This document shows, in pieces, positions 715 through 61,675 of a DNA stretch of 64,000 nt. The position numbers were made by a program, and so were the translations under genes. Under the pieces are notes generated by a model. That model ran no database searches. It saw only the letters and a program-made list of their open reading frames with translations, and was not told the DNA's origin. Every line of letters begins with the position of its first letter. Position 1 is the first letter of the stretch. The stretch comes from Ceratothoa steindachneri (Eukaryota > Arthropoda > Malacostraca > Isopoda > Cymothoidae). Where the stretch lies: assembly GCA_963969495.1 (NCBI GenBank), contig OZ018317.1:33047503-33111502 (forward strand). The letters are read 5' to 3'.

Positions 715-3535
715 CATTCATTAAATTAGGCTAAAGCTCCTCCTAAGTAACATTCTATTAACAAACCACTTTTGAGATGAGCCCTAGCTCCTCCTAAGCA
801 AAATTCTATTAATAAATCCTTTTTGAGACGAGCCCTGGCTCCTCCTAACTAACATTATATTAATAAGCCATTTTTGAGGTTAGCCCTAGCTCGTTCTAAG
901 AAACATTTTATTAATAAACCCTTTTTGAAATGAGCCTTAGATCCTCCTAAGAAACAATTTATTAGAAAACCCTTTTTGAGATGAGCCCTAGCCCTTCCTA
1001 AGTAACATTCTATTAATAAACACTTTTTGAGATGAGCCCTAGCTACTCGTAAGTAACATTCTATTAATAAGCCCTTTTTGAGATGAACCCTAGATCCTCC
1101 TAAGAAAATTATACTAGTAAACCCTTTGTGAGATGAGCCCTAGTTCCTCCTAAGCAACATTCTATTAATAAATCCTTTTTAAGACGAGCCCTAGCTCCTC
1201 CTAAGAGACATTCTAATAATAACCGCTTTTTGAGATGAGCCCTAGATGCTCATGAGAAACATCCTATTAGTAAGCCCTTATTGAGATGAGCCCTAGCTCC
1301 TCCTAAGTAACATTCTGTTAATAAGTCTTTTTTGAGATGAACCCTAGTCACTCCTAAGAAAATTCTATTAACAAAACCATTTCGAAATGAGCCCTAGATC
1401 CTACTAAGAAACATTTTATTAGTTAACCGGTTTTGAGATGAGCCCTAGCTCCTCCGAAGTAACATTCTATTAATAAACGCTTTTTGAGATGAGCCCTAGC
1501 TCTTCTTCCTAAGTAACATTCGATTAATAAGCCCTTTTTGAGATGAGCCCTAGCTCGACCTAAGTAACATTCTATTTGTACACCCGATTTGAGACGAGCC
1601 ATAGCTCCTCCTAAGAAACATTATAATAATAACCGCTTTTTGAGATAAGCCCTATCTCCTCCTGAGAAACATCCTATTACTAAGCCCTCATTGAGGTGAG
1701 CCCTATCTCCTCCTAAGTAACATTCTATTAATAAGCCCTTTTTTAGATGAGCCCTAGCTTCTTCTATGAAACATTCTATTAATAAAACCCTTTTGAGATG
1801 AGCCCTAGATCCTATTAAGAAACATTTTATTAGTAAACCCTTTTTCAGATGAACCCTAGATCCTCATAAGAAACATTATATTAGTAAACCCTTTTTGAGA
1901 TGAGCTCTAGCTCCTCCTAAGTAACATTCAATTAATAAGCCCTTTTTCAGATGAACCCTAGATCCTCATAAGAAACATTATATTAGTAAACCCTTTTTGA
2001 GATGAGCTCTAGCTCCTCCTAAGTAAGATTCTATTAGTAAATCTTTTGGGGGATGAACCATAGCGCCTCCTAAATAACATTCTATAAGTAAACCCTTTTT
2101 GAGATGAGCCCTAGCTCCTCCTAAGTAACATTCTATCAATAAGCCCTTTTTTATGAGTCCTAGATCTTCCTAAGAAACATTCTATTAGTAAACCTTTTTG
2201 AGCTGGGCCCTAAACCCTCTTAAGTAACATTCTATAACAAAACCTTATTTGAGATAGGGCATAGCTCCTCCTAAGTAAAATTTTATTAATAAACCCTTTG
2301 TGAGATGAGCCCTAGCTCCTCCTAAGTAACATTCTATTAGTAAGCCCTTTTTTAGATGAGCCCTAGCTTCTTCTATGAAACATTCTATTAATAAAACCCT
2401 TTTGAGATGAGCCCTAGATCCTATTAAGAATCATTTTATTAGTAAACCCTTTTTGAGATGAGCTCTAGCTACTCCGAATTAACATTCTATTAATAAACCC
2501 TTTTAGAGATGAGCCCTAGGTCCTCCTAAGTAACATTCAACTAATAAGCCCTTTTTCAGATGAACCCTAGATCCTCATAAGAAACATTATATTAGTAAAC
2601 CCTTTTTGAGATGAGCTCTAGCTCCTCCTAAGTAACATTCTATTAGTAAATCTTTTGGGGGATGAACCATAGCGCCTCCTAAATAACATTCTATAAGTAA
2701 ACCCTTTTTGAGATGAGCCCTAGCTCCTCCTAAGTAACATTCTATCAATAAGCCCTTTTTTATGAGTCCTAGATCTTCCTAAGAAACATTCTATTAGTAA
2801 ACCTTTTTGAGCTGGGCCCTAAACCCTCTTAAGTAACATTCTATAACAAAACCTTATTTGAGATAGGGCATAGCTCCTCCTAAGTAAAATTTTATTAATA
2901 AACCCTTTGTGAGATGAGCCCTAGCTCCTCCTAAGTAACATTCTATTAGTGAGCCCTTTTTGTGATTAGTCCTAGCTCCTCCTAAGTAACATTTTATTAG
3001 TAAGCCCTTTGTGAGATCATCCCTAGCTCCTCCTATGTAACATTCTATTAGTAAACGCTTTTGGGGATGAGTCTTAGTTTGTCCTAAGTAACATTCTATT
3101 AGTAAAACCTTTTTCAGATGAGCCACTAGCTCCTCCTAATTAACATTTTATTAGTAAGCCCTTTTTGAGATCAGCCCTAGCTCCTACTAAGTAACACTCT
3201 ATTAGTAAGCCCTTTTTGAGATGAGCCCTAACTCCTACTAAGTAACACTCTATTAGTAAGCCCTTTTTGTGATGAACCCTAACTCCTCCTAAGTAACATC
3301 TTATTAGGAAGCCTTTTGTCAGATGAGCCCTAGTTCCTGCTATGTAACATTCCTTTAGTAAACCCTTTTTAAGATGAGCCTTAGCTCCTCTCAAGTAACA
3401 TTCTATTAGTAAACTCTTTTTTAAATCAGCCCTATATCCTCCTAGGAACCATTCTATTAATAAACCTTTTTTGAGACAAGCCCTAGCTCTATTATTAATC
3501 CCTTTTTGAAATGAGCCCTAGCGTCTCCCATCTAA
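715..3535. repeat. 51-bp satellite array, about 55 copies
   Basis: Imperfect head-to-tail copies of a 51-bp unit fill this stretch. Each unit contains blocks such as GAGCCCTAGCTCCTCCTAAG, ACATTCTATTA and CCCTTTTTGAGATG. Because 51 is a multiple of three, open frames appear on the minus strand (about 2854-3394) as 17-residue repeats around GGARAHLKKGLLIECYL; these are by-products of the period, not genes. Monomers differ by 5-20 percent, apart from one recent duplication block. One to two monomers also occur at about 51.40-51.48 kb in inverted orientation, next to a copy of the sequence that follows this array, so the array probably grew from a unit belonging to a dispersed repeat. Confidence 0.95.
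1733..2952. repeat. Higher-order duplication within the satellite
   Basis: Two adjacent blocks of about 610 bp (1733-2342 and 2343-2952) are nearly identical to each other, including private variants such as a TTTTGGGGGATGAACC monomer, a GAGCTGGGCCC monomer and a TTTGAGATAGGGCATAGC monomer. About twelve 51-bp monomers make one block. This is a recent tandem duplication inside an older, more diverged array. Confidence 0.85.
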
Positions 3536-6589: not shown

Positions 6590-6985
6590 ATTTCTCAACA
6601 ACTGTTGAGTGTATGGTGGGATATTGAAGGAATTGTCCCTTACGAACTATTAGAGAACAATTTCTCCACTACAATTAACTTAGTGGCTTGAAAGCCGTTT
6701 TGGGTCAAAGGCGAACTTCCTTGCTCAACAGAAGGCGTGTCATCCTTCATCACGATAATGCCCGTCCAACACACAACTCGAAGAATGACGAAAGATCTCT
6801 TGGAGGAGCTGGGTTGGGAAATGTTGTTTCATCCTCCATATTCTCCTGACCTTGTTGCTTTTGATTATCACTTGTTTATGGGATCACAGGACCATTTAGA
6901 TGGTCTTTGGTTGACATCAAGAGATTAAAAACGAGTTGGATTCATATTTTCTATCAAAAGGAAATGAACTTTACATGCGTGGCAT
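6590..6985 (+). pseudogene. Mariner transposase, C-terminal fragment
   Basis: Three frames together carry mariner catalytic-domain landmarks in the expected order: VWWDIEGIVPYELLENN, then HHDNARP, then YSPDLVAFDYHLF. The Asp of HHDNARP and the final Asp of the DD34D triad are still readable. Frameshifts separate the blocks, so no functional enzyme can be made. A related fragment with the same motifs lies inverted at 47.06-47.39 kb. Confidence 0.85.
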
Positions 6986-7110
6986 TTTTAATCTTTGGCA
7001 GATGGAAAGAGGGTATAAGAAGCAATGGAGGTTATGTTTAAGATTAAATATTTCCAGTCATTTTTAATAAATACCCTAAAATCAGATATTACTTTCGTTC
7101 CAACCTGATA

Positions 7111-8057
7111 CAACGCTTTATAAAAATTCTGAGACATTTCTACTTCAAAACATTGAACGAATATCTTATTTCTCAACATAACACTCGCCTATCATTGGCA
7201 AATCCTACTAAGCTTTCAAAATTATTCGCACTATTGTTATAAAAGGTCTATAGAATTATAAATTTTAAGGAAAGTTGTAACTTGAATTTCTAGTAGAGTT
7301 ATAAATGTCCGTTGTGCCATCTACTATTTACTGTCTACGGAGAGTTTAGCTGTAACTCCCAAAGGATTGCCCAGTTAAGTATATTTTAAATACATGAAAA
7401 TTAAAGCCGAAAAAGATGAAATCTTTAATTTTGAAAATCCTGAATTTTGTCAGGATTTACTTGGGTGGAAAGTACATATAAAATATAATGTGCAGCAGGG
7501 AGCAGCAACGTAGCGCAGGGATAAAATATTACTATTTGTCTACAAATTTCCCAACTTCGGCAGCCCTGATTATTTCCCGAATTTATGACAACTTTAAAGA
7601 GTATAAATTTTCTTTAGACTACAGCCTCTTTAAACTTGAAGCAGCCTTGTCTGTGAAAGAGAGCGCTGCTCTACCCATCCTACCTCCTCCGAGAGCGACT
7701 AAAACCCCTCTTTCTGTTGTCTTCTCCTACGAAGCGACGTCCAAGCAAGTTTATGGATCATTTCTTACATGTCTTGACCCCCTCTCTACATCATTCCTTG
7801 CCGTCCCCCTTCATTACACCCTCCTCATCTTATGGTAGAACTCATCTTCATTGTCATACGGAGCCTCGCTGGTGAGATCATAACCAACCAACAGTCACGG
7901 GATACATTTGAACCAGGCAAAAGGCGGGCAAGAATCAATAGGCTTTTAACGCCAAAACACCTCACGCTTATTTTTACGCTTTCTTATCTATTAAACAAAG
8001 CAAAAACTGATAAGAGCAATCTCAGTCTTAAACTATTCGAGAAAATGTTCGTAAAGT
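7111..8057. repeat. Repeat block with an inverted partner at 45.0-47.06 kb
   Basis: 7111-7485 matches the reverse complement of 46728-47058, including GTCAGGATTTACTTGGGTGG. 7488-8057 matches the reverse complement of about 44990-45465, including ACGTCCAAGCAAGTTTATG and CGTCATACGGAGCCTC. In the left copy the two blocks are adjacent; in the right copy about 1.26 kb lies between them. Open frames of 116 and 76 codons here (7488-7838 and 7832-8062) are shared in part with the other copy but match no known protein family. Confidence 0.8.
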
Positions 8058-10678: not shown

Positions 10679-12030
10679 TCAGTAACTATGATGTCCTGAC
10701 CAAAGCACGTATGCAATATCACTGACGTGCTCTAGAATAGCTCTCATGTGGTGTTGTTGCCTGTCTGTTTTAGCACTTAATGGCGACGCAAAGACTGATA
10801 TTAAAGGCTTGTGATCAGTGCACAAGGTAAAGTGGCGACCTTCAATCAGGTGGCTGAAGTGCATGACAGCAAGATACGCCGCGAGGAGCTCTCTGTGATC
10901 GGTGGAGTATGCTTGCTGCGTCTCTCTTAGCTTCCTCGAAAAGAATGCAACCGGTTTTGCAGATCCGTCAACCATTTGGTGCAGGGCAGCATGTGCGGCG
11001 CACTGGGAGCAGTCTGTCAACAGCTAGTGCGGCAAATCATTGGTCAGCGGGTGACAAGAGTTTAACGGAGCCGATTAAGGTCGATTTGATATTTTCAAAT
11101 GGTTCTCGTGCCTTATCATTCCACACGAGCTCCCGAGCGTTTGGTTGCAGGCGTACAAGTTCGGTCAACAGAGCTGTAATCGCGGCAAAACTAGGAATCA
11201 TTCTGCGGTAGTATTCTAACATGCCAAAATATCTTCGAAGCTCCTTGTAGTCCTTTGGTAATGGTATGTCTCCAGTTTTCTCTATATTCTTCGCTGGTGG
11301 GCACATTCCCTCCACCGAAATGTGATGCCCTAAAATATCTATTTCCTCTTTCGCCAGCTCGCAATACCCCAGGGATATTCTCAGATCTTTTTCGACCAGG
11401 ATATCAAAGACCCACTCTAAATGCTTCAGGTGGTCGTCCATATTGTCTTAGTATATCAAGATGTCGTCTATATACACAAAAACTAACCATAATTTTCGAA
11501 ACAGGATGTGCATGTGCCGTTGGAAGGTGCAGCTTGATTTTCGGAGACTGAATGGGAGCTTAACGTACTCCCATAAACCAAATGGGGTTGTGATCGCAGT
11601 TTTCTCGATGTCTGCCTGGTTCATATTGATTTGTTGATAGGTACGAACCAGGTCTAACCTTGAATAGATCCTTTTGCCATGGCGGTGGTTCATAACACTG
11701 AATTCGCGGCAGCGGATACCTGTCGGGCTTTGTGATTACATTGAGTGCTCGGAAATTGTCGACCACTCTGTGCTCATCAGGCGACTTCTTTGGCACCATG
11801 TGAATTGGAGAAGCCTATGGTGAGTTTGACGGGCGCACGGACCCCTCCTTCAATAGTGTTTCGAAAGTTGCTTTGGTAACCTGTAGTTCCTCTATTGAAA
11901 GAGGCCTTGGCCGTGCGAATGTCGGTGGAACACTACCAGTTTCGATCGTATGCGTCACGGAGTTCGGCGATGACGGGGAGTGCTGAGCGGGTGCGGGTCC
12001 GTACAGAGTCTCATATCTTTTCAATATGGC
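10679..12030 (-). pseudogene. Reverse transcriptase-RNase H region of the gypsy element
   Basis: The enzyme would copy element RNA into DNA. Reading down the minus strand: LSIEELQVTKATFETLLKEG at about 11.85 kb is the N-terminal RT region; [20 protein letters not shown] at about 11.74 kb is a fingers motif; [14 protein letters not shown] carries the first catalytic Asp; YIDDILIY at about 11.45 kb carries the Asp pair; LGHHISVEGMCP and the YYRRMIPSFA block form the connection. RNase H at 10679-11020 keeps its three acidic positions in TDCS, DHREL and TDHKPL. At least three frame changes make it non-functional. Motif wording is closest to arthropod gypsy-like elements. Confidence 0.9.
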
Positions 12031-14640: not shown

Positions 14641-15540
14641 TAATTTTCTGTGACAAATTAGTCTGTTTCTCAATAAAAAATACTCGACTCTGCCTCCACT
14701 ACAAACTGTTAATAAATTAAAGATATTCCTTTCCTTACCATACTTTGGTTACCAATCCGAAAAACTTACAAAAATTGTTAAAACTGTTAAATTCAGCCTA
14801 TCCTCAATTATTACCATCTATTGTTCTCATTAATGACTTCAGACTGGGATCATTATTTAAGTTCAAAGATCAACCACCCACCAATATGCAATCTAATTTT
14901 ATATACGTTTTTCGTTGTACGTGCAGTAGCACTGTATCATATGTGGGGGCAACAAAGCGTACGCTTTACACCCGCTTCATGCAGCATATAGGTGGATCTG
15001 AAAGAACTGGACTAACCTTTCAAAACCTGATCCATCCCCAATTCGAAACCATCTGTCACAATGTGGCTCTAGGGCTACACTAGAGAACTTCACGATACTT
15101 AATGCGGTAAGAAACATCTCGGACCTTTACTTGCTAGAGTCAATTTATATTACAAAACTTCAACCCAGTCTAAATAATAACTCATTATCTGTCCCATTAA
15201 ATATAGTGACTCATTAAAAAACATGCTAATTTGTTAAATTTCACATTGGTTTTTTTTTTTAGGGGGATGCAAGAATAAAATCCACTCAATTATTTTCTAC
15301 CCAATTTTTTAGAAATCCTCTCGTTGGTTTAGTTTGTTTTTCCTCCATATTTCTAATGTAAATAATTAATCTCAAATTTAATATTCATGTTTCACAATTT
15401 TATTACATGAGTTAACTTTTTATGTATACATTTAACTCTGTATTTTGTATTCTTTCTCTAGCACTGATGATGGGATTAGTTATAATCTTGAAACGTTTGA
15501 AATAAATGTTACGAGGCATCTATGGCTCTGCCCTGGTTAT
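14640..15540 (+). pseudogene. Penelope-like element, 3' part with GIY-YIG endonuclease
   Basis: The readable protein passes from a PLE linker (SLPYFGYQSEKL at about 14.74 kb, then LGSLFKFKDQPP) into a GIY-YIG nuclease (FRCTCSSTVSYVGATKRTLY, residues with the Y and YVG-type core, then RFMQHIGG and a downstream ISDLYLLESIYITKLQPSLN block at about 15.11-15.18 kb). Penelope-like elements fuse this nuclease to a telomerase-related reverse transcriptase; the RT part is missing here. One frameshift near 14755 and a stop at 15081 break it. The 3' region ends with a hammerhead-like motif and then a (TA)n tract. Confidence 0.85.
15464..15493 (+). ncRNA. Hammerhead-ribozyme-like motif at the PLE 3' end
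   Basis: CTGATGA (15464-15470), one T, a 7-bp hairpin (GGGATTA with TAATCTT, loop GTTA) and GAAAC (15490-15494) match the conserved core order of a hammerhead: CUGANGA, stem II, GAAA. Hammerhead motifs are known in Penelope-like elements. A convincing stem I/III and cleavage site are not seen, and the extra T beside stem II is unusual, so activity is doubtful. Confidence 0.5.
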
Positions 15541-27489: not shown

Positions 27490-28672
27490 AGAACCAAAAC
27501 AAAAGGCACCTATGCGAAACCCTCTACATCGAGCTAAAAGTGGCACTAGTCAAACTTATTGAAGTTTCATCTGGTTTCATCGCCATATGTGCCGAAACCA
27601 AGGACGTAGACCAGCTCCTATCAGAAGAGGGAGCGAGGGTCCTACGGAACACTAGCCTAGAAGCAAAACCCTTTCACAAGCGGCAGCAAACAGAAGCGTG
27701 ATCTGCCGCAAAGTGGAGAGCTGGTTGGATGAGCATACACCCTTGGAGCTCAAGGAAGAGATCACCAAGAGCAACCCCTTGGCCCAAGTTCGCGAAATAA
27801 TCAAATTTTGCGAACATACCCACGTTTTTAAAATAACGTTCGCTCCCACAGAAATGGCAAAAAAAGCAACTCAGAATGGAATACTGGTCTTCAATATGAG
27901 AATACCAGGCGAAAATATACAACAGGAAAAATTTAGTAGCATACAAATGTGCTTTGTATGCTACAAACTCGAAGAGCACACGACAACGACATGCCCAGAC
28001 AAAAACAAACTGTGGTGCAGTGAATGCGCCACAGAAGGGCACCGATTTGACAAATGCGAGAGCACCAAGAAAAGATGCTTAAATTGCAAAGGGAAACACA
28101 GGACTATTGCCTTGAACTGCCCCAAGGGCCGCAAAATTATTAAAAGAAAGGAAGAAGAAGAGAGGAAAGCCAAAGAAACTACATACGCGAATGCCGCCAA
28201 GAAGAAGCCTGCATCTGCACTTGCACAGATGAATATCACAGGAGATTTGAGTACAAAGATATTAAGCTACATTAACCACGCAAATGTGGCAAATGCAGTA
28301 AAACCTGGCTGCTATAACCAGGTACTGAACGCTCTCTTGAAGGCGAATAATCTCCATTCAGTAATTATGCCTGAAGACCCCGAATGCTCCAAGGCATTCA
28401 AGGACTCAGTCATAAAGAATAATAGCGATAAGTCTGGACTGGAGGAGATTATTGAAGCTCCCTCATCGGAGGAATCCGAAGAGGACGACGAAGAGGATAA
28501 GGCTGAAAGTGAGGAGGGATCCTCTTCTTCTGACAACAAAGAGGGCCCCTGCACCCGTACACGAGCTAAAATGAGCAGGTCGAAAACCCCGAGTCCCCCT
28601 CCGAAAAAGGAAAACCCTGGGCCAAGTAAAACCGCCCAGCCAGCCCCCAAGAAGAAGAAGAAACATAGGTAA
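27490..28672 (+). pseudogene. LINE ORF1 (Gag-like) with three CCHC zinc knuckles
   Basis: The main open frame (27698-28672, 324 codons) starts inside the protein; a preceding piece (CAETKDVDQLLSEEGARVL at about 27.60 kb) lies in another frame, so there is a frameshift near 27.69 kb. Residues about 85-150 of the main frame hold three zinc knuckles: CFVCYKLEEHTTTTC, CSECATEGHRFDKC and CLNCKGKHRTIALNC. The tail is acidic (SSEESEEDDEEDKAESEEGS), then Lys/Pro-rich. The protein would bind element RNA. Only the one frameshift is seen, so this part is younger-looking than pol. Confidence 0.85.
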
Positions 28673-28684
28673 AAACAATTCACC

Positions 28685-31432
28685 ATGTTACAGAACGCAC
28701 TGAAGATACTGGAAATTAATACCAACGGCTGGTCGACGAAAGGAATTCTTTACGGAAATGTATTCAGAGAAATTGATGCAGACATCATCTTAATTTCAGA
28801 ACACGGGATCGACACGCGTAGTGCAGAAATGAAAATCTGGAACTACGATGTGTTGAACACAAATTATTCGCAGGAGCGGTACGACGGAGCCGCTATTGCA
28901 ATAAAGAAAGGAATTAAATACAAGCAAATAAGAAATCTAGAAGAATCCTACCTCGTGATTGAGGTCGAAGTCGACTTAGGAAAGTTGGTCATTGCTACCG
29001 GATATCAACCGCCAAGGAGAGATGTGTTACCAATTCACACTCTCACTGGCCTATTTGGCAGAAGAGCCCCCATTAAGTAATGGGGGATCTGAACGCCAGA
29101 TGCCGAGAATCCGGTTACAGGACCTTCAACAGTATACGAAGAATCCTGGACCTGTTGCTGGACAGAAATATTGCCCAGCGAATAGGCCCCGACTTCCCCA
29201 CCTATGTCAGAGCAAGAAGTGCCACAAAACCAGACATCTGTCTGGCGAATCGTCTGCTGCCGTTCAATTATTACATTGAACCAGTCCAGGTACCATGTAG
29301 TGACCATATAGGGGTCCTACTCACTATCAACAGGAACCCTATACAAGTTCCAGCTGTAGTCAGAAAGAACTACAATAGAGCAGACTGGACACGGTATGCG
29401 CGCCTTCTCGAGGCCTACGATCCGCCCAACTTGGACTAAGCAATTCTCGAGGAGATTGACGAGGCACTCGACGACCTCAATAACCATCTCATTAACGCAG
29501 ATATGGCTTGTATCCCTAAATCCGAGTATAGGACCATCTCTACCTACAGATGGACCGAATATATGAAGAAATTATACCGTGAGCTGAAGTTATAGTATAA
29601 AATCAACATCGTGAATGCGTCAGTTCACTCAATGCAGCGAAGTAAAGAAGTCAAAGAAGAACTGAACCAGTTGATCCTCGAACAACAATGTAAAAGATGA
29701 GAGGACGCGATCGATAGCCTCGATCACAAAACGACTCCCAAAGATTTTTGGAAAAAGATCCGAAATCTCAAAGGATCGACTGGGAAGAAGAAGCAGAAGA
29801 TCGAGCGACAAAAGGAAGATGGAAACATCGAAACAGAAGAAGGAAGAATTGAAGAGATATTCCGATTTTATTTGGAAAAGATCTTCAGTATAACTAAAGA
29901 GGAAAACGAAGACTATGACCTAGGTTTTGAAAGCAACATCATCGACGAGCTTAACGAACAAATACACAAGACGCACCCTCACCACCAAGTGGATAGACAG
30001 CGCCACGGAGACGCCGAGATTACCGAAGAAGAACTACTCGGCGCGCTCCGCTCATTCCAACAAAAAAAGCCCCAGGACAATCGGGGCTTACAAAGCTTAA
30101 CTTTGAAAAGGCACCAGCCAATGTCATCGAAGGGATGAGAATAATATATAACGTCTGTCTGAACACGGGATACTTTCCAGATGCTTATAAAATGGCTAAG
30201 ATGATTTTCTTGCCTAAGCACGGAAAGAACCCAACGTTGAAGGAGACCTATTAGCCAGTTTCACTTCTAGAATTTGGCGGGAAGCTCTTCGAGAAGATTC
30301 TCAACAAAAGACGTGTCTCACCGGAGGAGAACTCCCTCTACAACTCACATCAATTCGGGATTAGGAGGAAACGAACTACGGAGATGGCGATTAATGTTAT
30401 CGCAGAAAAGCTAACACAAGCAAAACGGGAAAAGAGTTACGTGGACATTGTTTGTCGGGATGTATCAAAGGCGTTTGGAAGGGTGTGGCAACGGGGAATG
30501 CAGTACAAGATTTTACGACTGGGCCTAAGTGAAAATTTAGAAAGAAATCTCTGTGACTATGTCACGGAGAGAGCGGCGTACACCAGTTTAGGGTGCACGG
30601 ACGGTCCAAAGTTTCCGCTCACTGCGGGCCTCCCGCAGGGCAAGGGGGAGGGGGCTGTCCCCCACTCTCTACTTGATTTACACCGCAGATGTCGCAGTCA
30701 CTGTAAGCCCCACTTGCCTCAACATTCAATTTGCTGATGATTTCACCCAGATAATCACTTGTGCATGGAAGAATGCGCCTTGGCAAGCTCGTATAACAAC
30801 GGCAGAAATTGAAAATCTTCTCCCCTTAGGAGGTCCGGTGGAAGATCCGCACCAACCAGGAAAAGTTCAAAGTAGTCCCCATAGGCAGGAGACTACTTTA
30901 CGACATCAGGGTGGGGTATAGACGATATCCCTACACCACGGAGTGCAATGTAGTCGGAATGAAGATTACCTCATCTGGGTACAAGAAGCACGTTCAAGAG
31001 CGAATCACCAAGGCCACTGCTGCAGTCAAGACTCTATATAGATTCAGAAATCTTCGTCAAAGCAATAAGGAAAAGATCTACAATGCACTTGTAAGATCTA
31101 CGCTGCTATAACCCGCTTCCGCTCTCTAATGTGTCTCGAAGACACAAAAGAGGGAACTACAAGTGGTGCAGAATAAATGTACGTACCTAATTACAGGTAC
31201 ATGCAGATTAGAAAGAAAACGCCAAGAAGAGCTGCAACGGGAGGCGGGGTTAAGTCCCATTAACATTGTCGTAGAAGAACGGACAAGGAATATGCTGCAA
31301 AAGGTTAATCGTGAATTGGACAATAAAATCGTCCAAATGATTGACCAGAATAGAAAAGGAATAGGTCACGTCAGATTTCCAAGCTCCGCCGGGGTTTTAG
31401 CTGGCGGAGCAGAAGTGCCCTTCTACGCATGA
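28685..31432 (+). pseudogene. LINE ORF2 (endonuclease and reverse transcriptase)
   Basis: Begins at ATG 28685. The N-terminal endonuclease reads LEINTNGWSTKG, ILISEHGI, then after a frameshift at about 29078 MGDLNARCRESGYRTF and PCSDHIGVLLT (the SDH motif). The RT reads GYFPDAYKMAKMIFLPKHGK at 30.17 kb, VDIVCRDVSKAFGRVW at 30.45 kb with the first catalytic Asp, AGLPQG at 30.63 kb, FADDFTQI at 30.73 kb with the Asp pair, then a C-terminal QVVQNKCTYLITGTCRLE block at 31.16 kb. Stops at about 29437, 29593, 29698 and 30252 and several frameshifts disable it. Confidence 0.88.
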
Positions 31433-38686: not shown

Positions 38687-39990
38687 CTACTTGAAAATAA
38701 AATCCATGCGCCTGCTTTTACTTGTAACGAAATGATTTATGACAGCTTCATGGAAGTTCTTTGATTCCGTTACCATTGCACTTTCAATTGATGACATTGC
38801 TAAAGCAGACAATCTTTCAGTAGCCATAGTGCTACGCAGAAAAGTTTTAATGCTCTTCAAAGTTGAAAACACCTTTCTGCTTCGGCTGTTGTCATTGGAG
38901 TTGTTATTAGAATTTTCAATAACCTGAATTGCCTGTCTCAGGCAATTCAGGTTTTCTTCATTTTGCTTCAGGTAGCTCTTGCATCTCTGTATCACACTCA
39001 TCACATGCAACTCTTATCCTTTGAAGTGCAGAATTGAAAGCATTCAATGCAGCATTAGCTTTAACTGCATCAATATTTCTGGATTGAAGCTTGAAAACAA
39101 AATATCTACATAGGGCAGTACTTTAGAGAAAAATCCCAGCCAAAAATTGAACTCGGGATCCCTTAACATTCTCTTGATACCAGCTGCTGCTAAACCAGTG
39201 ACCTTTGAGTTCGCTGACTCTAGTTTACTGCAACATTCAATGATTATATCTTTCATTTCATACACAGCATTCACAGTTCTGCTATTGAAGTTCCAGCGTG
39301 TTGTCGAAGGCCTAGCAATTCTGTAGGAATCTGCAACACTCTCTAATGTGGCCATTCTTTGTGGGGGGGGGTTAGAAAAGAAAGCTGGTATTCCTGACAA
39401 ACTGTTGAAAAAGCCTCTAACTTTAGAATTTTGTGATGATGCCTTTTCCAAAATCAATTTCAGTTGGTGTGCATAACAATGTACAAAGTGAGCATGGCTA
39501 TATACTTCTTTTATTCTAACTTGCACACCACTCTTAGCTCCACTTAATGCAGCTGCACCATCGTAAGTCTGAGCGATAAGCTTATGCGGACAATCACCAA
39601 TTAATGCTTGTATCTCTTCAAATAGCACACTTGATAGGTCTTGTGCAGTCAAGCTGAGAGGGTTAAAAAATCCCCAGAATCTCTCAACAGGTTTTCCATC
39701 TATTTCATATCTTAAAACAATTAACATCTGTGTTTTATCATAAATGTCTGTTGTTTCATCACACATCATTGCTACAAAACTTGTAGATTTTACTTCTTCT
39801 TCAATCATGTTTCTGCATATTTCTAGTGTTGATTCCAAGATTTCATTCTGTATAGTTTTAGATGTTCCTCTGAATACTGTTGCAGTTTTTGAATGAGCAT
39901 TTAAGCTAGAATCCAGTTCACAAGCAAACTCTACGATTCCACGAAATACTCCAGGATTCTTGGAAGTAGGCCCCTCATCGTGTCCTCTGA
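38687..39990 (-). pseudogene. hAT transposase (DUF4371-type) with few lesions
   Basis: The longest frame (39044-39838, 264 codons) is preceded in frame by LRGHDEGPTSKNPGVFRG-like sequence up to about 39.98 kb. Catalytic-core landmarks are MMCDETTDI (first Asp), QTYDGAAALSGAKSG (second Asp), HFVHCYAHQLKL and PSTTRWNFNSRTV. After two frameshifts near 39.09 and 39.01 kb, 38687-39010 carries the dimerisation domain (LSALAMSSIESAM with the Glu) and ends at 38687. The N-terminal zinc-finger region is disturbed. This is the best-preserved transposase in the window and its element may have moved recently in evolutionary terms. Confidence 0.88.
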
Positions 39991-40229
39991 GTGGGGGTTC
40001 AAACTTGCCACAACTTTACACAATCCACAAGTTTTGAAAGAACAGCTCTGTTTTTTCTCACTTGTTCATTGTGCTTTGCAAATGAGAGTCTGTATGCATG
40101 AGAAGCTCATTTCAGTATCAATGTTTACACTGCCCAGTAACGAAAGACTAACCAAATTATGTAAGTGTTTGGCTGATTTTTCATGTTTAACTATTTTCTC
40201 TTGTAAATGTCTCAGGTCTCTCATGCCAC

Positions 40230-40660
40230 TCTTCGTCCAGGCTAAGAGGCATGTGCACGGAGAAAATGCTTTATCAGAAAGGAAAGCTCAATAGTGGTTT
40301 TCACGTTTCAAAAACGGTCATTTCAATCTTAATGACGAAGAACGTTCTGGTCGCCCCATTAAGTTGGATGAAGATCGATTGATCGACCTTCTTCATGAAA
40401 ATCCTCGTCAATCGACTAGAGAATTGGGTGTACAATTGGCGTGTGATCAGAAAACTGTAGTGAATCACCTTCATTCGATGGGGAAAGTTCAAAAACTCGG
40501 CGCATGGGTTCCGCGCGCTTTGAGCGAAAGCATCAAACTTCAACGCTCCACGATTGCCGCAGGTTTGCTTGCTCGTCACAAGGATACTCGTGGATATAAG
40601 GACAGATTTCTTCACCGCATCATCGCTAACAATGAGGGAGGACACACTGTAATCCCGGGG
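40230..40660 (+). pseudogene. Mariner transposase N-terminal fragment nested in the hAT element
   Basis: Reads WFSRFKNGHFNLNDEERSGR, then LIDLLHENPRQSTRELGVQL, KTVVNHLHSMGKVQKLG and WVPRALSES, the HTH domains of irritans-type mariners (family patterns EERSGRP and WVPHEL). It extends to FLHRIIANNEGG, just before the usual catalytic DEKW motif, where the frame is lost. One stop at 40290. The catalytic domain is absent. Confidence 0.85.
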
Positions 40661-41009
40661 AATCGGGCTGTACTAGTGCAGCTCACAACGGGTTGGCGCT
40701 GCCACCAACCCTGGAAAAAGTGTTTTACTTTAAAGTTGAATTAATTTATTAAATCTGCAGTATTTTGTGTTAAAAAAAGGATAAAACAATGAAAAAAATA
40801 CTAAATGGAATATAAAAGTATAATATTATTTATTTGTATAAAATTAATTAATAATATGAATTAACCACTTATCTATCATCTGCCTGGCAAGGCTGAGACA
40901 GGGAGGGCTGCAGCTTACCAGCCGCCCCTGACTGAGTCCTTTCTTGAGAGCGTCGCAACGAATGTAACAGGAGTTTTGCAATACTCGGTAGGGCGGTTAT
41001 TTTGTCACT

Positions 41010-50917: not shown

Positions 50918-51488
50918 AGGACCCCAAATTCTCATGGTTGGATGCTGCCTCTGAGGGGATCGTAAAGGGAAACGAAATGTCCAGGGATCATCTTCAAATG
51001 TTCGAGTTTACCTACCGCCTACCACGTTACTAATTTGTGACTTATATGATATATTTTGCGAATCTGAATAATTAATAGGGAAAGTGTTAGTGTGGTTCCT
51101 TTTGGCCTTGTAAGTAGGTGTTGTGGCGCCAGAGACACTCATTCGGTAGATGGGGCACGCAATCAGGGTGGTCAGACACGAAAGTCGTGTGACCCTGAGT
51201 GGTCGCAGCGACTCGACATAGCGCTTGGCCGTCATTGGTGAAGAAGACCTTGTACGACGCAGTGTCGGAGAGCAAAAGGAGCTTCATGGCTTTTAGTTTC
51301 AGTCAAAGTAAAGGATTTGCTCAGATTGTCATCAGGATCTAAAGTTTACAAGGGCCTTATAAAATACTCAGATGGGAAGAGCTTGGGCTCATTTCAAATG
51401 GGGTTCACTAATAGAATGTTTCTTAGGAGGAGCTATTGCTCATCACAAAAAGGGTTTACTAATAGAATGGTACTTAGGAGGAGCTAGG
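50918..51488 (-). repeat. Dispersed repeat, right copy with satellite monomers
   Basis: Reverse complement of 3400-4086 without that copy's 105-bp insert. Its right edge holds one to two monomers of the 51-bp satellite, in the same position relative to the rest as on the left. Confidence 0.8.
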
Positions 51489-55381: not shown

Positions 55382-55800
55382 ATGAGTGCCAAGTGGCATT
55401 TGAGTAGGGAGAGCGGCGACCGCGCGAAATACGGCAAGGACTTCGAAAGGGATCTTTCAGCGCTGTTGTTCAAACGCGTCATTGACGCTAACTTCTAAAA
55501 TTTCGACTCTATCAGAGAAAAAAAAGAGGGGTCGGAAAATTCGATGATATCATCGTCATCACCAAGGAAGTGGAGAGGGAGAGAGAGAATTCAGACTGGC
55601 ACAACTCAAACATAAACAAAACGAAAATGGCACCATTGACTACGAGGCACTTGGGCAAAACAGAAACAGCGATTTTTATTTGCCAAAGTATTATGACTAC
55701 TATGTCGAATCCAAGACTAGCATCTTAAGAGACTACGATTTTGATGGCGCAAAGCTTCAAACTCTCTACATGGTGACCAGTTTTGATAGTTTTGGATGAC
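55382..55800 (+). other. PD-(D/E)XK-like nuclease region of the NLR-like gene
   Basis: Three frames in succession give an N-terminal amphipathic segment (YGKDFERDLSALLFKRVIDA), then KFDDIIVITKEV with an Asp pair at the end of a strand, then AQLKHKQNENGTIDYEALG. The spacing of Asp-Asp, about 20 residues, then Gln-x-Lys is the pattern of PD-(D/E)XK nucleases with a QxK variant, as in Mrr-like and Cap4-like (DUF4297) enzymes. Only the motif is seen; the fold is inferred. Confidence 0.5.
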
Positions 55801-57461
55801 AATTTGAGGGATATAAATACAGAGAAAGTGACAAAGGATCCTCTATTTAAAACGGATGCAAGCCTCGTCAAACTAAAGATACCAGATGATGTGAACCGAG
55901 ACATCTTCGCTCACAGTTATCTGACAACACGCCAAAGATTAGCCATTGAGTTAGTGGAGTATTTAATGTGTGATTCGCGCATCAATCAAGCGAGCATTAA
56001 CAAAGACGAAAAGAAGAGCCTCATTAAAGTGTACCAATAAGAACTGGTGGAATACGGAATAGACTCCGACACAAAAGAATTCAAATCGAAATTATGGGCT
56101 TTTTCAGCAGAAGGCAACGTGAAGAACTTCGGAAAATCTTTGGTAGAAGCTTTAGAAAAGTTTGATAAAAAATACAAAAACAAAAAGAAAGAGAACTTGA
56201 TACAGATGCTTGGTGTTAAGGAAACGTTTTGATAACTATAGTAAAAGGCGTGAAGTCTTCTGAATACCTGTCCTCAGAAGAGGAGGTGATTGCTGGACTT
56301 AAAGTTGACGAGAATATCAACGAGTTCCTGAACCTGCTTGTCTTCGTCACCAATCTTAAAGATGTAAAAAGTGTGACAAGAAAACTGATGGAGCCAAGAG
56401 AGTACACGGCCTTCTGCGATGATTTTGAACGATGGTTTGACTATGGAATGAAATCGGAAGAGGATATTCGTATGTGCGAGTGGTTATTGAAGGAAAACCT
56501 TTGTCAACGCGCATTGGTTTCTGATAGCAACTTTCAACGTAAAGTACTAAAGGTTCAAGAAATGGTTAAAGGTGACAGAAACTTACTCACGCCTGATCTG
56601 TTAAGTTTAGTATTCTGTGGTCAACGTACTCTGTCGGTCGACCACCTCAGAATTTTCAGAGACAATGAATTATTACATTCCCCGAAAATAAGTGTGCAAA
56701 AAAAATGATAAAGAACGGGAAGATTTAACTGAAAATGACTTAATTAATGTTACAGCAGCCGTTAAAAGACGAATCTGGATAATAATTGGTGAACCTGGAA
56801 TCGGAAAAACGTGTTTTATCGAAAATATTTCGAGGATATTTACTGAAAGGGGCGAAACTACACTTGGATTATCTTTATTCCTTTGAATGCTATAAAAAAG
56901 AACTGGATACGTTAATATCCTATAGTTATGAGAATATTATTCATTTTTTAGGGATATTGAGAAGTGCGAATGTGACTTTTCAAGTGCATTGCTTCGACAG
57001 TTCATCTTTGGTAGTTGTAGGGGAATCGTCCCTCTCCCGTTCTCTCCCAGTTGAGACACGGGACCTTGACCACAAAAACATCCGGGCAAGGCACCTTGAG
57101 TCTCAAGCTCGTAACCACAGCCCCTCGCCACTCGTCTCTGTAAAAAGCAGAACGGTTTAACTGGCGAGATCTTCCCAACGAGGTATATTCAATTTCACCT
57201 CAAGTACGAAATTGGAGACGCGTTTCTCTCAAGCTCGAAGGCCAGCTGGAGCAGAGGTAAGACTTGATGAGAAAAACCGTTGGAGTAAGACCCCTCCTGC
57301 GGTCCGTCCACAAGACGTCCCCCTCCCCATCCTCCTACCCCTACCTGAGTGTGGTGACGAGGGATAAATACAAGCAGTTGGGGAAAACGAGGTAGAATAT
57401 GTAAGTCGCCAGGCTACGAAGTCTCCGGCAATAGAGGCCGGGCTACCAAGACTGGAACTAA

Positions 57462-57950
57462 GAAGAAGCTCATCCTCGAGCTAGTTCCTGGTTATCAAAC
57501 CGAACATCAAGGTTAACTTGTTCAAGTTCAACTTACTCTCGTCTGAGAGACTCCTCCTATCCTGGTGGATCTTAAAGCCCAGGGATTGTCCTCGCCCTTG
57601 AGCAATTACGTAACGAAGAAGAAAAAGCTCCCCCTCGAGCCCGTTACCCGGTGGTCACCCCAAACTCTAAGTTAACTTGGTTTAGGAACCAAGTTCAACT
57701 GATTCTCGTCAGAGACCCCCCATCCCTATCTTGGTGTAGAACAAAGCAACTTGATAGTCCTCGACCTTGAGGACTTCCAAAACTAAGAAAAAAAAGCTCC
57801 TCCTAGAGTCAGTTACCCAGTGATCACACCGAACTCTAAGTTAACTTGGTTTAAGAACCAAGTTCAACTTACTCTCGCCAGAGAGACCCCGCCTATCCTG
57901 GTACCTCCTAAAGCGCCGTGCTAATTCTCGCACTTGAAGAAGACCCACCC
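57462..57950. repeat. Three tandem repeats of about 160 bp in the LTR
   Basis: Copies start at about 57462, 57617 and 57784 with AAGAAGAAAAAGCTCC-like sequence, then GTTACCCGGTGGTCAC, GTTAACTTGGTTTAGG-AACC hairpins and CTCGTCAGAGA. Tandem repeats in the U3 part of LTRs often act as promoter elements; whether these do is unknown. Confidence 0.75.
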
Positions 57951-58377
57951 CCCCTTCCTGAATACCATGTGGACCCCCATCTGCTACACTCGCTGAAGTA
58001 CCTTGTGACTGCCAAGTCATTCAGTCCACCTCCAACAATCTGGTCGAAGCACGCGTCAAAGGACCCACCAGATTCCTGTGGTTTCTGGGCTCATTGAGTT
58101 CAAGGTCAAACTCAAACCCACGGCAAGAGCAACCAAGGTATTTAAACTCCAGTGGAGACAATTAGCCTATTCCTTTTATATAGAAGTGAGTAGCGAGTTA
58201 GCCAATATTAGAGGGTCAAGTTAAGTGAAGTCATTATTGTGTATGTTAAATTCGTAGTATTTCTGTGGTTCATGTTTTTTGTGTAGTAAATTGTAGTAAA
58301 TTTAAAATATATGTTTGTTTTGGGATAATTCCTGTGCGTTTCTTTATATCCTTACGTGTTGAAGCGGCTCTTCCTGA

Positions 58378-58473
58378 AAAACAACAAAAGCATACTTCAA
58401 AAAAGAAGTATATCACGACAAAAAGGTATACTTCGACAAAAGTATTACTCGATCTAAAAAGTATTCTACGACA
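58378..58473. repeat. Short tandem repeats at the LTR 3' end
   Basis: Four degenerate units of about 17 bp around AAAAAGTATACTTCGAC. The last one forms the end of the LTR. Confidence 0.6.
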
Positions 58474-60659
58474 GTAGTCATCCGATTAGAATATTATTAG
58501 ATGCACTCGATGAGATTTTGAAACCTGCGCAGGACAAGGTAATCAACCTTATCAAGTTTCTTCGCGACAATAGTCAGGTGGATGAAATATGGGTCACGGC
58601 TCGAGTACATCTCCAACAAGAACTCGAACTACGCCTCAAAGAAAGAGCATTCGCTTTACAAGAGCTGGAGGAAAGGGGCCAAATTTCTTTATTAGTTAAA
58701 TATTGGAAACACAATTCGATGCAACAAGACGAGGACAAACTCAGGTATTTTGGTGAAAAGTTAGTGGAAAAAAATCAGTGCTAATATTGATCGCCAGGGG
58801 TTGCACTTTCTAGGTATTCCCCTGCAAGCTTACATGGTGGCTTTTATCTTTTGTAAAAAGGTGGAATGTAAAAACATTGATATTCCTAATATATTTACTC
58901 TGATATCTCTGTATGACAAGTTTGTCGAGGAGAAATTTGAGATTTACTTTCGCAAAGAGAATTGGCACGGACAGGAAGATTGGTTTAAAGAGCATTACCG
59001 ACGAGGCTATCAACACATGGCCATTCTCTATGGTGAAGTCATTTCCATGGATGAAAATACAATTAGTTTCTTCTTAGGTCCTAATCTTCCTCTCTCTTCA
59101 GAAAGACAAGCTCTTTTTAAAATTGGCATTGTTTACGAACGGGAAAATGAAATCTTTTTCATTCATAAGACATTTGCAGAATATTTTGTAGCTAAACTCT
59201 TCGCAGATGTTTGCAAAAGAAAAGATAATTATAAAAATAAAACGAATTATCTCAAAGTAATGAGGACTGCACTAAATTGTGATCATTGATCACCTCTTCG
59301 ATTGTTCTTCGATCTCAAAATTACTGAAGATTTTCCCTTGCAATTTTATGTCTTGAAAGGAGAAATCGCTAAAGTGAAAGAATATGGTAAGGAAGCATTA
59401 AACGAGTTGGATTATTCAGGGAGATCACTTCTATATTACACTTTACAGTATGAGAATGAACACATTCTGGACAAGTTAATCGAAAAAAATATATGTATCA
59501 ATTTAAGTGACGAATATTTTTCTCTATGTTGGGTAATTGAGATGCACCGGCCTGAATGGAATGCGCAAGGATTCTCACGACTTAAATTTGCTCTTTATGT
59601 CCTCCAAAATGAAGCGAATGTCTTTGACGCTGACTCCAACCTACCGGGTATACAATCTACCATTGATGATGACTTCAACATTCCTGCTATCCAATTTAAT
59701 ATAACCAAAGGCCATTTTTCTGATTCTGTCAAAGAGAAAATTGAAATGGGGAAGAAACTTGTGCAGGAAATGACTTTTGATTTCACTGAAATTGCTTCAG
59801 CAGACCTCCCAAGCAAAATAAACGAGTTGAAGAGCAAATAATTACCCTTGGTTAAAGCCCACCTTTACTTTGAAACAAACGGAGAGCGTCTTTTAAATGT
59901 TGAAGAAGCTCAGCTACATAATAATCTTAACCGTGAGGAAGTACAGGCCCACATTGGGGTTCTCACAGAGGCAAAATCTACTTTTTCGGTCATTTATAGA
60001 AATCTTGTGAAAGTCTTATTAAATTATGAATATGAGCAAGCTACATCTGATATTCCTGGAATTTTCGAGATAGTATGAAAACGGTGCCGTAGCCTATATC
60101 TTCTATTGAAAACTTTCATCATAAAAAAATGCCAATAAAGCACACCTATTGGTGTGGATGGAATATTTCGATAGCATGTATTAATCGGACATAAAATTTG
60201 TCAACTGACGTTTGTTATATTTTGGAGCTCTTAAAAGAGCATGAGGAAAGTATGAGAAGAAAGCCAAGTTCTCCAGATACTAGGGAAATTTCTAAACTTT
60301 GGACCAAATGTCTAGCTGAACAGCTCACTTTGAATGAACAAACACTTAGCCAGGCAGTTAAAACAGTAGTTAAAATATTATTAAAAACTAGTCTTGCATA
60401 TCGCACAATTGAATTGCTTAAAAAACTTTTTGATTCGGTTAAGTCTTCCCAGCTGGAAGAAGTTACGAAATATCTACGGGAAGCGAGAGATCTAGGACTT
60501 CTAGACTTAATTTTAAATTCCGTTGAATGCGACGGAAAGACTCTAGAAGATCTCGTCAGAGACACGATGAACGGTGATCATTCCGCAGTTCTACAAAAAT
60601 TGACTCGAGCTAGAGGCGATTTGCAAGCAGATTTGCACAAAGATTCCACATCAGTCTAA

Positions 60660-61440: not shown

Positions 61441-61603
61441 CTAGGTTATATTCCACGTTTTCTCATGAGATATCGAGTACCACCTCTCTTCGTCTTCTAC
61501 TTCTGCTTCTTTTGTAGCAGTTCCTCCTTGGCTCATAATTTAAATTTGGGTGGATGTCGGTCTTCCGTGTCTTATAATGCCATTTTCGATCTCTTCGTAT
61601 TTC

Positions 61604-61675
61604 GCCCCACCAAGGACTCTAACCTCAGACCTCTGGTTATCTAGACGAGTGCTCAACCACTGAACTAACAGGACC
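61604..61675 (-). pseudogene. tRNA-like sequence, Thr-type body with AGA anticodon position
   Basis: On the minus strand GGTCCTGTTAGTTCAGTGG contains an A box (TAGTTCAGTGG), GTCTAGATAACC is the anticodon arm with AGA in the anticodon position, and GGTTAGAGTCC is a B box with one or two mismatches. The acceptor and anticodon stems have mismatches, so it is a pseudogene or SINE head. It is followed by no recognisable SINE body. Confidence 0.55.

Follow-up and report, generated by a model that had tools for sequence, protein, structure and literature searches.

The window analysed here, a 64-kb stretch of the genome of the isopod Ceratothoa steindachneri (C1:33047503-33111502 of a 3.93-Gb assembly in 529 contigs), carries near its right end a dead gene copy. 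We interpret it with fair confidence as a pseudogene belonging to a small arthropod family, present in several copies, of NLR-like STAND proteins that would have a nuclease effector built in and work in an Avs-like manner. The architecture of the family is probably a restriction-endonuclease-like N-terminal domain, a NACHT switch, a short ankyrin stretch and a C-terminal region. The window copy starts with MSAKWHLS at 55382 on the forward strand and its last frame stops at 60659, and it is laid out as follows (L009, L012 and L014 are paralogous loci in the same genome).

55382-60659, + strand: decayed nuclease-like/NACHT/ankyrin gene copy of arthropod type, insert counted in (from the frame list and collinearity with L009)
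55382-55796, + strand: first part of the N-terminal PD-(D/E)XK-like domain, split over three frames
55777-56708, + strand: rest of the N-terminal region, with the linker leading to NACHT; the frame changes, and a stop lies in frame at 56038-56040 (from paralog alignments)
56692-57015, + strand: first half of the NACHT nucleoside triphosphatase (NTPase), containing Walker A (NACHT above the Pfam cut-off in paralogs)
57016-58473, no strand assigned: insert of 1,458 bp resembling a solo long terminal repeat (LTR), with TG...CA ends and duplicated GTAGT, the site being empty in L009
58474-59289, + strand: second half of the NACHT domain and the following part (from motif reading and paralogs)
59290-60075, + strand: ankyrin-like stretch together with the C-terminal region, interrupted by an in-frame stop (59839-59841; Ank_2 in paralogs L012 and L014)
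60195-60659, + strand: C-terminal end of the gene, matching the L009 C-terminus

The motifs named in the original prediction, which had been made from the letters of this DNA, were all found in the forward-strand sequence. In the N-terminal domain, FDD lies at 55540-55548 within FDDIIVITKE (55540-55569) and QLKHK at 55602-55616 (QLKH itself at 55602-55613), Walker A (GEPGIGKT) is at 56788-56811 and Walker B (LLDALDEI) at 58494-58517, and the second NACHT half and the part following it contain VTARVH (58593-58610), FLGIPLQ (58807-58827) and FIHKTFAEYFVA (59158-59193), with the ankyrin-like stretch beginning at about 59320. These motifs are spread over different frames with stops in between and the copy is therefore dead. 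The earlier claim of a killed gene copy in an animal genome is supported. Searched alone, the ten fragments of the window copy had no Pfam match above threshold (the sub-threshold ones of the Walker A piece being to P-loop families), none of 8,000 candidate proteins scored against the read-through of the broken copy reached an E-value of 0.001, and a PDB sequence search with the NACHT end piece returned Bax1 alone (E 0.062). The N-terminus of locus L010 aligned with 55382-56025 in three pieces of 58-90% identity, and L009 is collinear with the window copy, with coding blocks 88-93% alike and flanking DNA common to both, as in a segmental duplication. As paralogs with the same order of parts exist in the genome, four of them open from the N-terminal domain to NACHT, and as Pfam recognizes NACHT in the paralogs, this gene architecture is not a product of chance.

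The alignment with L009 also accounts for the separation of Walker A from Walker B, since 57016-58473 has no counterpart there. The insert starts with TG and ends with CA, and GTAGT stands on either side of it (57011-57015 and 58474-58478) as a 5-bp target duplication, whereas L009 shows an empty site with one GTAGT. Such ends together with a short target duplication are the appearance of a solo LTR. The gap is therefore an insertion, and an intron between the two Walker motifs is ruled out by the same three observations. In addition, a repeat resembling the insert (72-82% alike) adjoins the paralogous locus L018, and inside the window insert an internal repeat of 166 bp occurs twice.

The NACHT end piece of the window copy gave at least 13 matches in the genome, which resolve into at least 11 loci, and the N-terminal domain of L010 gave at least 14 matches falling in the same 11 loci; these locus counts are lower bounds. 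Six of the loci, the window copy among them, lie within 0.28 Mb at 32.90-33.18 Mb of C1 and the others are dispersed (one at C1:175.3 Mb, one each on C4 and C13, and two on C36). At four of the 11, the N-terminal domain runs through to the NACHT end in a single intronless open frame, namely L010 (1,210 amino acids from the first methionine), L011 (1,040), L013 (1,038) and L014 (1,491), and it is L014 only that reaches the full length of P0001-P0003 (relatives from elsewhere, below), as the other three stop earlier. Open copies uniting the N-terminal domain, NACHT and the ankyrin stretch in one protein, on whose existence the original prediction depended, are thus present in the genome, and neither of the two outcomes that the prediction named as refuting it was found, although the fold of the N-terminal domain comes from a low-confidence model. 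The frame of L012 (1,295 amino acids) opens shortly ahead of the FDD motif, with the first piece of the domain about 0.8 kb upstream; the window copy is broken, as are L009 and L015-L018.

The Pfam NACHT profile PF05729, a check that had been proposed with the prediction, scored above cut-off in five of six paralog proteins (the sixth, from L016, is an N-terminal piece without the NACHT region), and Ank_2 did so in two of the six, L012 and L014. The alignment contains Walker A, Walker B with a DGxDE-type box, a sensor arginine and the downstream end expected of NACHT/NLR-like proteins, and the paralogs have the NLR-like order of N-terminal domain, central NTPase and C-terminal repeats. Purifying selection was detected on the open copies, whereas the window copy compared with its nearest relative shows little or none. 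The synonymous divergence of the window copy from L009 is about 7-12% and it has several lesions, so that of the expression 'recently killed' the second word stands firmly and the first is only a fair description. Two smaller points concern the paralogs. The first N-terminal piece of L012 (GKHGKEFE..., about 6857-7680, - strand) is separated from the rest by about 0.8 kb of either insertion or intron. About 110 extra residues before NACHT (L014 approximately 485-600) occur in L013, L014 and P0001-P0003 and are missing from L010-L012; on this sequence comparison the segment is a domain gained or lost inside the family.

Relatives were also found outside this genome. With residues 1-260 of L014 as query, three proteins were recovered from 1,075 candidates (P0001-P0003, with 61, 50 and 48% identity to the query respectively), all three with NACHT and 1,401-1,449 amino acids long. 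P0003 is RMT77_009849 of the isopod Armadillidium vulgare, which has the source label UNVERIFIED_CONTAM, yet lies on a 60-Mb contig. A profile built from seven full-length proteins added five further relatives (P0004-P0008) among 7,998 scored candidates; the N-terminal motif is common to P0004-P0007, of which P0006 (AGLY_010283 of the aphid Aphis glycines) is a more distant relative. The eighth, P0008 (1,722 amino acids, on a JGI contig, annotated 'ankyrin repeat protein'), has a related NACHT end and a different N-terminus, and may come from a symbiont. A NACHT-only tree, which lacks P0004-P0007, is given no weight here.

The pattern D-D...QxK is invariant in all 17 N-terminal domains compared, from the genome paralogs, the isopod, the aphid and other relatives; each of D, D, Q and K is present in 17/17, and an upstream E in 15 of 16, so that the E/D ... 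(D/E/Q)xK series characteristic of PD-(D/E)XK nucleases runs across the family. An AlphaFold model of the domain, although of low confidence, has the alpha-beta-beta-beta-alpha-beta order with the catalytic-type residues in place, and the longest structural alignments among the matches listed are to the nuclease domains of bacterial Cap4 and Avs3. By fold class, about 40 of the 50 structural-match rows listed have the restriction-endonuclease-like fold, a comparison that bears on members of the fold list and leaves room for other nuclease families. We regard the product of the open copies as an arthropod NLR-like STAND protein with a probable built-in PD-(D/E)XK nuclease.

Several results weigh against this reading. 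The mean predicted local distance difference test score (pLDDT) of the N-terminal model is 54, and none of its 419 Foldseek matches reached E<=0.001; with HMMER, none of the 17 N-terminal sequences matched PF14130 (Cap4_nuclease) at E<=10 or any other Pfam nuclease profile, and PDB profile searches gave no nuclease match for the domain. A whole-genome search with PF14130 gave no match and was uninformative, as its control was detected in 0 of 14 genomes. An hhalign comparison with E. coli Mrr led nowhere. The proposal of a nuclease-STAND gene in an animal, made in the original prediction, is partly supported, by motif order and predicted topology, with no Pfam nuclease profile matching; the structure prediction that it called for fits the PD-(D/E)XK topology, if in a weak model. 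The PDB profile search with the full-length alignment returned ankyrin-type or ankyrin-fusion entries, mostly designed, in all of the best 60 of 212 rows.

These contrary results are what speaks for a different alpha/beta fold in the N-terminal domain, with the likeness to KFDD...QLKH and the fold matches being coincidental. We consider this quite unlikely in view of the order of the motifs, their placement on strands, the predominance of restriction-endonuclease-like rows and the Cap4 and Avs3 domains giving the longest alignments. The domain could also have the restriction-endonuclease-like fold and serve in nucleic-acid binding or protein interaction, with signalling through partners as in ordinary NLRs; the support for a nuclease consists of fold prediction and motif conservation, but the retention of D, D, Q and K in 17/17 exceeds the needs of a non-catalytic scaffold, and we regard such a role as unlikely, if worth keeping in mind.

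Two further explanations concern the origin of the genes. A selfish or element-borne gene, spread by duplication and with no host role, would agree with the multiple copies, with the seven of 11 that are not open from the N-terminus to the NACHT end and with the transposable-element pieces around. Purifying selection on the open copies, the flanking DNA that the window copy has in common with L009 (as after a segmental duplication) and the full-length relative in an isopod nevertheless make this improbable. A recent insertion of symbiont DNA, from Wolbachia or its phage, has in its favour that Wolbachia phage WO carries an arthropod-like NACHT-ankyrin protein (PMC5062602). We reject it as highly improbable, since five sites of the host assembly, lying far apart, carry copies and since pattern-based scans, two over bacterial genomes and three over viral contigs, turned up no family relative; such scans work best for close relatives. 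The phage records yielded nothing beyond a weak match to the ankyrin region (E 0.03-0.8; three records, all of Wolbachia phages), and tblastn with the first 782 residues of the broken-copy read-through against phages gave none.

For the nuclease-bearing family that we favour, a mode of action can be proposed by analogy with bacterial Avs/STAND proteins, from which the sequence of steps is taken and whose order of effector, NTPase and sensor is described in PMC10286901. A signal of damage or of an intruder would be sensed by the C-terminal part; the NACHT core would then exchange nucleotide and oligomerize, and the clustered N-terminal nucleases would be switched on to cleave nucleic acid themselves, with no adaptor being recruited; nuclease activity, oligomerization, a ligand and an immune role are all ascribed to the family on this analogy.

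Among known systems, Avs (especially Avs3) is a bacterial antiviral STAND protein, of the group from which the union of nuclease and sensor core is best known, whereas the present family consists of animal genes with ankyrins and no sequence relationship to Avs was found; descent from Avs is putative. With PADLOC, three of five proteins gave weak matches only (mads_8, Csx3 and PDC-M72A; best E 1e-4) in P-loop or ankyrin regions, so that no known defence protein was recognized by profile; in ncbifam the best defence match was antiphage EruA (E 1.5e-6, 26.7 bits where 1,000 are required). Cap4, an effector of the CBASS defence system, has, to judge by PDB titles, a SAVED sensor instead of a STAND core, besides the failure of PF14130 noted above. 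The nearest animal parallel is SAMD9/SAMD9L, likewise an animal STAND-like protein with a nuclease effector built in, but a nuclease of another kind: its effector is an Alba-region tRNA anticodon nuclease, accompanied by SIR2, TPR and OB domains and an altered P-loop (PMC13245274). The same 2025 review calls this built-in nuclease a departure from the eukaryotic STAND proteins characterized before it, which recruit adaptors, and likens it to Avs.

Bordenstein (2016, PMC5062602) reported NACHT homologues of the phage WO protein throughout arthropods and crustaceans. That protein also combines NACHT with ankyrins; an N-terminal nuclease is not mentioned in the accessible part of the paper. The arthropod homologues may be the same family as ours. 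Shrimp LvNLRC (PMC12370184) is set apart, by description, by its leucine-rich-repeat C-terminus where the present family has ankyrins, and one termite protein has NACHT and WD40 (PMC3712931). Among the literature matches listed, from a coverage that took in little of the subscription literature, no title or opening of an abstract dealt with an arthropod NACHT protein with an N-terminal restriction-endonuclease-like domain. The word 'undescribed' in the original prediction should be used with caution, as arthropod homologues of the phage WO NACHT domain have been published. It is possible, and we put it forward tentatively, that this is an undescribed crustacean/insect NLR family in which an N-terminal PD-(D/E)XK nuclease itself acts as immune effector; it would then be the counterpart of Avs in animals, with a nuclease unlike that of SAMD9/9L, and possibly of ancient bacterial origin.

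If so, animals would have, besides SAMD9/9L, another family with a nuclease built in, its fold being a different one, which would point to a wider occurrence of direct nuclease immunity among animals. The family would moreover belong to arthropods, and accounts of their immune repertoire usually contain no NLRs; in one catalogue of 2015, neither 'NLR' nor 'NOD-like' was found in the main text. Since open copies were found here, the idea is directly testable.

Elsewhere in the window, a tandem array at 735-3489 consists of 54 copies of a 51-bp unit (79% matches), and the unit of a two-copy array at 51387-51486 resembles, by eye, the reverse complement of this unit. Remains of a non-LTR retrotransposon occupy 27656-30737 (+), where an open reading frame with zinc-knuckle-like cysteines (by eye, with no Pfam match) is followed by reverse transcriptase pieces (RVT_1, 30255-30734, +). 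At 10682-11023 (-) and 14721-15080 (+) are a piece of retroelement RNase H (E 5e-22) and a GIY-YIG match of Penelope-like type that stays below threshold. A DUF4371 match, of transposase-derived type, stands beside a second open reading frame (39047-40015, -, and 40295-40741, +), which we take to resemble a mariner/SETMAR N-terminus, with no Pfam match at E<=0.001. Finally, 61603-61674 (-), which lies some 1 kb past the downstream end of the pseudogene, is a tRNA-Ser (AGA) gene or a copy resembling a short interspersed element.

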